Source: Candidatus Azophilus lithoversatilis (lineage in GTDB: Bacteria > Pseudomonadota > Gammaproteobacteria > Pseudomonadales > Azotimanducaceae). Taken from it: DNA of 43,137 nt. The stretch is taken from contig JAQAJJ010000026.1 in assembly GCA_028278675.1 (NCBI GenBank), positions 1-43,137 of the forward strand, read 5' to 3'. The notes under the pieces are model-generated. The model was not told where the DNA came from, did not search any database, and was given only the letters and a program-made list of their open reading frames with translations. Below are positions 10,121 to 12,802 of the stretch, one piece after another. Both the position numbers and the translations under genes were made by a program. Every line of letters starts with the position of its first letter. Position 1 is the stretch's first letter.

Positions 10121-10300
10121 CGTAGCCTTGGGCATGGAGCCCGGGCATCTTGCGTCGCCTTGGACCAAGGTGGTTCCGCGGGAAAGTTGGACGCTCGCTC
10201 CACGCCATCGGCCTCTCGCTGGCGCCGATCGAATTCACTGCCAATCCGACGGCAAATCACCTACATTGCCAAAACTGCGGCAGGTTGAGGCGGGAGCGCC

Positions 10301-11413
10301 ATGGCTTTTGACTATTCGATGGGAGAGCACGCCATCCGCGAGGACGTCGCCGATGCGCATCGGGCCGTCTGGCGGATGATCGGCGAGCCTGGCTGTTGGT
10401 GGTCTGGCGGGGATCGGATCGCATTCGTCACCGAAGCGCGCAACGCCCGCGCCTGCGAGGCTTGCCGAAGACGACGGGAAGCCTTGTCCCCTAACGAGGA
10501 TTGCGGCCCCCACCTCCGAACGACCCGCCTGCCGGATGTCGTCGTCGATACCGTTCACCGGGTCACCACCGACCCGGCACGCCTGTCGCGAAGCTGGCTT
10601 GATGGCGTCAACGCCGCCGGTGTGACCGGCGAGCAATACGTCGAACTCCTGGGCGTGGTGGTGGCGGCAATCAGCATCGATGCCTTCCATCGCGCGCTGG
10701 GCTTGCCTCTGGAGCCCCTGCCCGCCTCGACCGCCGGCTCGCCGAGTGGCTACCGACCGCCCGGCGCTGCCGACTCCGGCGCCTGGGTGCAAACCGTGCA
10801 ACCCGAACACGCAGGCGATTCCGAAGCCGATCTCTACCCCAGCGGACGCACCGGCTACGTGATTTCCGCCATGAGCCTAGTGCCCGACTCGGTGCGCATG
10901 CTGCTCCGATTGAGCGACGCCCAATACCTGCCCATCGACAGCATCCGCACACCCAATGACAACGCGGACCGCACCCTTTCCCGTTGCCAGATCGAGCTGT
11001 TGGCCGGCCGCGTGTCCTCCTTGAGCGAGTGCTTCTACTGAACCAGCGCCCACGCCATGATGCTCCGTGCGAGCGCCGAGACCAGTGGAGAGGACGTGGA
11101 CTTAGCAGCCATCACTGACAGCGCAGCGATCCCAACCAGCGTGCCCGGCGACCGAGCCCTGCTGGCTTTCGCAGAAGTCTGCTTAGGTGACGATGCCGAA
11201 GCCATCGCCGAAGCCCGGCGGCGGGTGCTCGACGAGTTGGATGAGGCGGCCATGATCGAAGCCGCCGGCGTCATCGCCAACTTTCAGCGCATGGTGCGCA
11301 TCGCCGACGGCACCGGCATCCCGCTCGACCCCCCGATGGCCGCTCTGACGGCTGATTTGCGCGTCGAATTGGGCATCAACGGCTACGGAGTGGGAAGGTC
11401 GGAACGGCTATAG
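10301..11413 (+). CDS. AhpD-like (carboxymuconolactone decarboxylase fold) protein with in-frame UGA; candidate selenoprotein
   Basis: The frame is intact from ATG 10301 (GGAG upstream) to TAG 11413, except for one TGA at 11039-11041, codon 247. Read through, it is 370 aa. The TGA falls in ...SLSECFY-[UGA]-TSAHAMMLR, which lines up with the AhpD/CMD redox motif CxxC followed by a His four residues later (CFYU-TSA-H). Thus UGA occupies the second, resolving or catalytic, cysteine: Cys244 and Sec247. A second CxxC (Cys52/Cys55) lies in the N-terminal half. Sequence after the TGA is conserved-looking (ANFQRMVRIADGTGIPLD) with no frameshift. AhpD-like selenoproteins are known from bacterial surveys. 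Alternative: a nonsense mutation, as in the neighbouring regulator. The hairpin at 11046-11076 (GCGC/GCGC outer and CACG/CGTG inner pairs) is a weak SECIS candidate, and its loop does not clearly meet the usual rule. Likely role: thiol/selenol peroxidase or reductase. Confidence 0.7.
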
Positions 11414-12009: not shown

Positions 12010-12101
12010 TGGCGGAGAGGGTGGGATTCGAACCCACGGATCCCTTGCGGGATCTCTTGATTTCGAGTCAAGCCCGTTCGGCCAAGCTCCGGCACCTCTC
12101 C
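12010..12101 (-). tRNA. tRNA-Ser (anticodon CGA)
   Basis: On the minus strand the acceptor stem GGAGAGG pairs with CCTCTCC, followed by G and an encoded CCA. The anticodon stem CTTGA/TCAAG encloses loop CTCGAAA, giving anticodon CGA. A long variable arm (GATCCC...GGGATC) and the T-arm GGTTCGAATCC are present, as expected for a class II serine tRNA of 92 nt. Confidence 0.96.
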
Positions 12102-12139
12102 GCGGTAGGCGCACAGTGTAACCGCAAACGGAGAATTGG

Positions 12140-12802
12140 CTAAGTCCGACTATCGAAGTGCGGGCGGGTCTTGACGAACAAGAGGCTTGGCTCCACGCAA
12201 ACCACCCTTAGCGGATGCCCCGGCGCCAAGCGGAACCAGCTTTGCGGCGCCAGGGTGCGGGTTTGCTCGGTCTGCCAGGTGATGAGGCCGCGCAGGACCA
12301 GCAGTTCGCGGCAGTAGTGGCTGGCTCGCAGGCGCACGTTGGCGCCCGCCGCGGCGCGCACGATGGCGGCTTGTTCGCCTTGGTTTTCATGCAGTCGTTC
12401 CGTTCGCCAGCCGTCCTTTGGGCAGCGTTCGCTGATGGGGAGCACGCAGCGGCGCTGGTCGTCCGGGTGGAACTGGCGGAGCTTGACGAACAGGGTGCAG
12501 CCGGGGTCGCTGTAGGGGCTGTGGGCCGACCCGGGTGGATTGCGCACGTAGGTCAGCGGTGGATAGTGGCTCTGCTCGTCGGCGAACTCGCCATCGAGGA
12601 CGATGAACTCCTCACCCGTAATGTGTTTGTGGGGGCTGTATCCCGCGCCAGCCGCGTAACGAACAAGCGATGTGGCCACCGCCCGTTCACCGCCGATGCG
12701 GTCGAGCATCACCCGCTCGACGCCAGGCAACGGTGAGGGGGTCCACGCATGCTGATCCGGCGTGACATGCACAATTTGGTCGAAGTCGGAGCGAATGCGC
12801 AT
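12140..12802 (-). CDS. ChrR-type cupin protein
   Basis: 220-aa two-cupin protein. The first half carries the metal-binding pattern (GAGYSPHKHITGEEF, then VLDGEF), and the conserved YVRNPPGSAHSPYSDPGC segment of ChrR-like cupins. The second half ends ELLVLRG...SWFRLAPGHPL. The N-terminal zinc anti-sigma domain of true ChrR is absent and no ECF sigma factor is adjacent, so it is more likely a stand-alone metal-dependent sensor or enzyme. Its 5' end abuts the repeat at 12803; its stop lies 38 bp from the 5' end of tRNA-Ser. Confidence 0.75.
   Translation of the reverse strand: MRIRSDFDQIVHVTPDQHAWTPSPLPGVERVMLDRIGGERAVATSLVRYAAGAGYSPHKHITGEEFIVLDGEFADEQSHYPPLTYVRNPPGSAHSPYSDPGCTLFVKLRQFHPDDQRRCVLPISERCPKDGWRTERLHENQGEQAAIVRAAAGANVRLRASHYCRELLVLRGLITWQTEQTRTLAPQSWFRLAPGHPLRVVCVEPSLLFVKTRPHFDSRT

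Follow-up and report, generated by a model that had tools for sequence, protein, structure and literature searches.

The gene at positions 10301–11413 of the window, a 43,137-nucleotide stretch of contig JAQAJJ010000026.1 from Candidatus Azophilus lithoversatilis, belongs to the catalogued protein family NF041238, and the in-frame UGA at its codon 247 is very likely read as selenocysteine (Sec), judging from comparison of the nucleotide and protein sequences with those of relatives. With high confidence, the product is regarded here as an NF041238 selenoprotein in which Sec insertion would be directed by a hairpin and which would act as an AhpD-type redox enzyme. An initial annotation of this DNA had proposed a candidate selenoprotein at the redox site of an AhpD-like protein, and the proposal is supported by the Sec machinery of the genome, by the conservation of the UGA, and by a conserved hairpin 3′ of it.

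The reading frame opens with the ATG at 10301, the previous in-frame stop upstream lying at 10286, and is split by a single TGA at 11039–11041 (codon 247), after which it remains open to the TAG at 11411–11413. The initial annotation's description of one TGA dividing a 370-codon frame is therefore confirmed (Table 1). On read-through, the TGA stands in the context C244-F-Y-U247-T-S-A-H251. The GC content at third codon positions is nearly equal on its two sides (0.78 before, 0.77 after), and coding conservation continues 3′ of codon 247, in agreement with the earlier remark that the sequence after the TGA is well conserved. A plain listing of open reading frames truncates the gene product at residue 246; a mechanical listing returns 20 candidate TGA-split frames in the window.

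Table 1. Features of the predicted selenoprotein gene, in window coordinates.
Feature	Position	Strand	Remarks
AhpD-related gene (NF041238), predicted selenoprotein	10301..11413	+	370 codons including the putatively recoded UGA, then TAG; NF041238 E 1.2e-136 over residues 12-362
Second CxxC (Cys52, Cys55), N-terminal half	10454..10465	+	both Cys in 48/48 copies
CMD/AhpD domain, residues 222-291	10964..11173	+	Pfam CMD (PF02627), 24.2 bits, above gathering cut-off 23
Cys244, opens CFYU motif	11030..11032	+	Cys in 48/48 copies
In-frame UGA, predicted selenocysteine 247	11039..11041	+	TGA at the same codon in 48/48 aligned copies
His251 of CxxC...H active site	11051..11053	+	His in 48/48 copies
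SECIS-like hairpin core	11062..11074	+	4-bp stem 11062-11065/11071-11074, 5-nt loop 11066-11070

The read-through protein matches NCBIfam model NF041238 with 455.6 bits (cut-off 175) over model positions 1–355 of 357. This entry, AhpD_rel_CFYUT, is described as an "alkylhydroperoxidase-related (seleno)protein", and its CFYU-T motif is found in the window gene as C244-F-Y-TGA-T; the model is also matched by all 30 members of the family alignment (A2). The score against TIGR01926, a peroxidase-related enzyme model, is 41.4 bits and lies below the cut-off of 81.8. In the available text of a 2026 review, NF041238 is given as an AhpD-related protein corresponding to "hypothetical protein 1" of the Sargasso Sea selenoproteome, with the motif CxxU (PMC13188914). 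The 2005 Sargasso Sea paper, in the parts available, lists for hypothetical protein 1 four Sec sequences that carry a CXXU motif and states a downstream stem-loop for all of its new selenoproteins, and its table gives 4, 7, 0, and 5 for this protein, the 7 and 5 being taken here as Cys homologues (PMC1088965). Since the family has its own NCBIfam entry and appeared as hypothetical protein 1 in the Sargasso survey, neither the family nor its Sec form is new, and the window gene is a member of an already catalogued family and not a new kind of protein. The suggestion of the initial annotation that the longer form with a second CxxC may constitute a distinct group was thus right as to the separateness of the group, but the group had already been described under these two names.

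Codon 247 is TGA in every one of 48 distinct aligned copies from many genera, which were drawn from the matches above cut-off with none selected by stop codon and with partial copies left out. Cys244, His251, Cys52, Cys55, His71, and His86 are each invariant in the same 48 copies. Family matches above cut-off were obtained in 42 of 97 relatives and in 137 of 206 genomes of the window's own bacterial family. Among the 150 matches listed from these 206 genomes (a count made by eye; more matches exist), all 150 contain an in-frame TGA: a single TGA in 148, two TGA in another, and a TGA together with a TAG in the last. The two extra stops, one TGA and one TAG, coincide with Gly and Trp codons of relatives and hence look like random damage. 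No full-length relative with Cys at codon 247 was seen among the 48 aligned copies or the 150 matches listed, so that no exchange of Sec and Cys within the family was observed. In the set of 97 relatives, the rows above cut-off without a stop (genomes G011 and G004) are N-terminal pieces ending before codon 247. Locus L025 was omitted from the counts as it lies on the same contig as L053, L032 is a duplicate of the window gene, and L090 was missed by the first search expression and recovered with a looser one. The initial annotation had held that chance would rarely place a nonsense mutation at exactly the redox codon and had advised that homologues be inspected for Cys or UGA at that position; the uniform UGA in the alignment, together with the in-frame TGA of every match listed, places the coincidence beyond chance.

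Several irregular copies were also encountered among the relatives. L118 (G004:C21:6000-7700), from the same genus, has lost most of the middle part of the protein through an in-frame internal deletion and retains the N-terminal CxxC and the CFY-TGA, representing either a natural variant or an assembly collapse. L119 (G011:C84) and L120 (G038:C88) appear to be frame-broken or to have an incomplete N-terminal region; their CFY-TGA part is intact.

A conserved hairpin lies just 3′ of the UGA, where the initial annotation had proposed a search for a SECIS element. The hairpin that it had noted at 11046–11076 encloses the conserved core listed in Table 1, the loop of which begins 24 intervening nucleotides past the UGA. 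Across the 48 copies, the four base pairs of the core are retained in 45, 47, 48, and 48, and the second position of the loop is G in every copy. The stem pair 11065–11071, both bases of which fall at third codon positions, reads C-G in 42 copies and U-A in the other 6 and is never mixed; on the tree, this switch needs at least three changes (gains or losses), forced by well-supported branches. Thirty copies align gap-free from the TGA, and for these RNAalifold predicts a 5-bp stem with a 5-nt loop. Synonymous constraint was measured as the degree to which codon identity exceeds that expected from the codon usage of each gene and was scored where enough pairs share a residue, which gave 154 columns for the 48 copies, with hairpin codon 257 outside the scored set. 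The four most constrained of these columns are L255, S258, and R256, all within the hairpin, and Y246, directly before the UGA. With the 30-copy set, the same four and codon 248 form the top five of 179 columns, codon 248 ranking fifth there and tenth with 48 copies, and codon 246 is TAC in 30/30 copies of one set and 40/40 of another.

Some results weigh against the hairpin: its stem is short, at 4–5 bp, the folding energy of the 51 nt from the TGA in the window sequence is no better than that of shuffles (z 0.21), and there is no Rfam match in 10900–11250. As the energy of the single hairpin gave no support, comparative tests were used instead. Over 29 distinct sequences, 98.3% of cells are paired, and the covariation score is reached by 1 of 500 shuffles; the count of pairs changed on both sides is reached by 68 of 500, and sliding the partner columns by +3 yields a higher covariation score (0.147 vs 0.083). 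The hairpin pattern occurs at four places across the window's genome, including the selenoprotein gene, and at none in the reversed control. A downstream hairpin with a small apical loop containing G, the arrangement looked for in bacterial selenoproteins, is accordingly present, with mixed results in the pair controls and an unremarkable energy, and the hairpin is likely to be the SECIS, on the comparative evidence of the aligned copies. The initial annotation had called it a poor SECIS, a doubt that was fair from one sequence in view of the shuffle result; against it stand the constrained codons and the covarying pair across 48 copies.

The genome of the window, listed as 99.56% complete, encodes all four components of the Sec pathway that the initial annotation had named for checking, each above cut-off: selA (507 bits), selB (395.8 bits), and the tRNA-Sec gene (75.2 bits) are neighbours on a single contig, and a different contig carries selD (266.9 bits). 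ARAGORN likewise reports a tRNA-SeC with anticodon tca in this genome. Across the relatives, SelB is above cut-off in 40 of 42 family-positive vs 17 of 55 family-negative genomes (p 2e-11, uncorrected for relatedness). Within the window's own bacterial family, this link is weaker (38/40 vs 14/21, p 0.006). The two family-positive genomes without SelB above cut-off are G024 and G026, both of them drafts with a listed completeness of 91%. In G071, which belongs to another family of the same order, the gene immediately precedes selA-selB, with all three in one orientation (L091, G071:C321, 279-5204). As a separate observation, the selD match at L049 (G000:C36:21267-22166) falls within a 777-codon open frame, the model having 311 positions; this long frame is possibly a fusion of the Ndh-SelD type, which is mentioned in the available text of PMC2398784.

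Stray stops do occur in the family, as the extra TGA and TAG among the 150 copies listed attest, and some relatives carry partial or frame-broken copies, both of which would fit a gene that is dying or miscalled, its TGA being a plain nonsense mutation or an error of assembly. This explanation is scarcely credible for codon 247 and was rejected because the TGA recurs there throughout the aligned copies; coding sequence is conserved beyond it, and the stray stops lie elsewhere. The UGA might instead be a plain or regulated stop that yields a 246-residue protein, perhaps with a second product from a downstream ATG: a frame of 118 residues beginning with ATG occupies 11057–11413, and a restart would be possible in many relatives at codon 254 (11060), which is ATG in 25 of 30 copies. 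Such an arrangement would lose the invariant His251, encoded after the UGA but before either ATG; an ATG at codon 253 is present in no more than 10 of 30 copies, and neither the association with SelB nor the correspondence of the UGA to a catalytic Cys would be explained, making this reading very improbable. Nor is there any serious prospect that UGA encodes an ordinary residue such as Trp throughout the organism. The frame would be open under such a code, but in 11 of 31 family loci it is a TGA that first closes the frame beyond the match. The Trp reading was rejected on account of this and of the tRNA-Sec encoded in the genome; the position moreover corresponds to the catalytic Cys in three structure alignments. 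Decoding of codon 247 as Sec is the reading adopted in what follows.

The AlphaFold2 model of the protein has a mean pLDDT of 92.9, and its best fold matches are the AhpD-type structures 6k40, 2prr, and 3c1l (best E 1.8e-3), no match at E ≤ 0.001 being found for either the whole model or the N-terminal half. By profile, AhpD-type solved structures are matched over the C-terminal half only. The initial annotation had placed the TGA at the redox Cys of an AhpD-like motif, and it does align with the second active-site Cys of CxxC...H in the alignments shown with three solved structures, 6k40, 3c1l, and 2pfx. Modelled alone, the N-terminal half reaches a pLDDT of 92.0, and its 13 best fold matches are AhpD/CMD-type chains, all weak (best E 0.033, rmsd about 9). 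Comparison of the two halves by profile gave no significant similarity, and an internal duplication is unsupported at this level, the best local alignment setting CEAC on CFYC over 14 columns with a probability of at most 2%. In the model, a Cys pair sits at the turn between two helices in each half. The N-terminal half may represent a second, divergent AhpD-like fold, according to the predicted structure.

In the mechanism proposed, UGA codon 247 would be decoded as Sec by the SelA, SelB, tRNA-Sec, and SelD of the genome under the direction of the short hairpin, giving a C-terminal AhpD-type catalytic domain with a predicted active site Cys244-x-x-Sec247...His251. Sec247 would most likely reduce an organic peroxide or similar electrophile and would then form a selenenylsulfide with Cys244, which thiols would re-reduce, possibly through Cys52 and Cys55. 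From the AhpD-type fold and profile matches, the Cys pairs at the helix turns, and the sestrin-like layout, we infer a Sec-based redox enzyme acting most likely on peroxides, with a dithiol helper at Cys52/Cys55 as a possibility. For peroxide reduction as the specific role, the chances appear about evenly balanced. The protein could also be a selenoprotein that is no peroxide reductase, serving as a dithiol-type oxidoreductase or, in the manner of Bmp8, using a different substrate, for instance a halogenated compound. That AhpD-like debrominase (6ohi, 6ohj) is among the fold matches, and the family has no constant gene neighbour that would fix the substrate (the commonest cluster occurs in 10 of 40 regions); Bmp8, however, ranks below 6k40, 2prr, and 3c1l, and such a role, while a possibility to be reckoned with, is considered unlikely.

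The tree of the 48 copies is divided into two well-supported clades of 14 and 34 members (100/100), and both clades are present within one genome in several cases (e.g., G016, G024, G051, and G060). The two clades are old paralogues, with the UGA in every aligned copy of both. A fuller scenario, in which the protein would be a tandem AhpD selenoenzyme of sestrin-like layout, with Cys52-x-x-Cys55 as a dithiol relay re-reducing Cys244-Sec247, and in which the family would have split early into two clades while keeping Sec in every aligned copy, is put forward only tentatively and is judged doubtful as a whole. Outside the window's bacterial family, the rest of its order was represented by 36 genomes, of which two (G063 and G071) have matches above cut-off. 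Of 369 genomes sampled from the class and 398 from the phylum, with at most 5 and 4 candidates scored per genome, respectively, only the window's own genome was above cut-off in each sample. A search of named genomes returned one relative, on a Gammaproteobacteria metagenome-assembled contig (L053; best segment 83% identical), and no relatives on plasmids were found. Over 40 regions, no conserved operon was found, and the cluster found most often besides the gene itself stands at varying distance from it.

Close to the selenoprotein gene in the window, on the minus strand, lies a gene with a ChrR-type cupin domain (12140–12802). A tRNA-Ser(CGA) gene, also on the minus strand, occupies 12010–12101 and additionally gives a sub-threshold tRNA-Sec match; the weaker RF01852 match, at 12013–12102, was rejected as a tRNA-Sec gene, being this tRNA-Ser.

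To a family known from in silico work, the present analysis adds the two old paralogous clades, the invariant second CxxC, and a hint from the model of tandem AhpD-like folds, along with comparative evidence for Sec decoding in the form of synonymous constraint and the repeated paired change in the hairpin. It also supports a recoded gene where a plain open reading frame listing stops short. With a TGA in every match listed and no Cys form among them, the family is well suited to the question of why Sec persists.

In comparison with known systems, the window gene agrees with NF041238 in sequence, in its CFYU-T motif, in coverage of the whole model, and in the predicted Sec, with no distinguishing feature found. 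The table of the 2005 paper, in its available form, contains counts for hypothetical protein 1 that are taken as Cys homologues, whereas none is among the matches listed here (PMC1088965). Among the selenoproteins of the marine surveys from 2005 and 2008, the AhpD-like and CMD ones (COG2128, PF02627), as far as the available texts describe them, share with the window protein a CxxU in an AhpD/CMD domain; they are families separate from hypothetical protein 1 in the 2005 table. The solved structures 6k40, 2prr, and 3c1l align with the C-terminal half of the window protein, with CxxC...H in the same place in the alignments shown, but are chains of 188–197 residues that carry Cys at the site and leave the N-terminal half uncovered. 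Sestrins, according to the available text of PMC4674687, contain two AhpD-like domains per chain, one of them catalytic, and give weak whole-length fold matches to the window protein that are not significant (E 0.5 or worse, rmsd 12–15). The catalytic half is N-terminal in sestrin, whereas the predicted catalytic half of the window protein is C-terminal.
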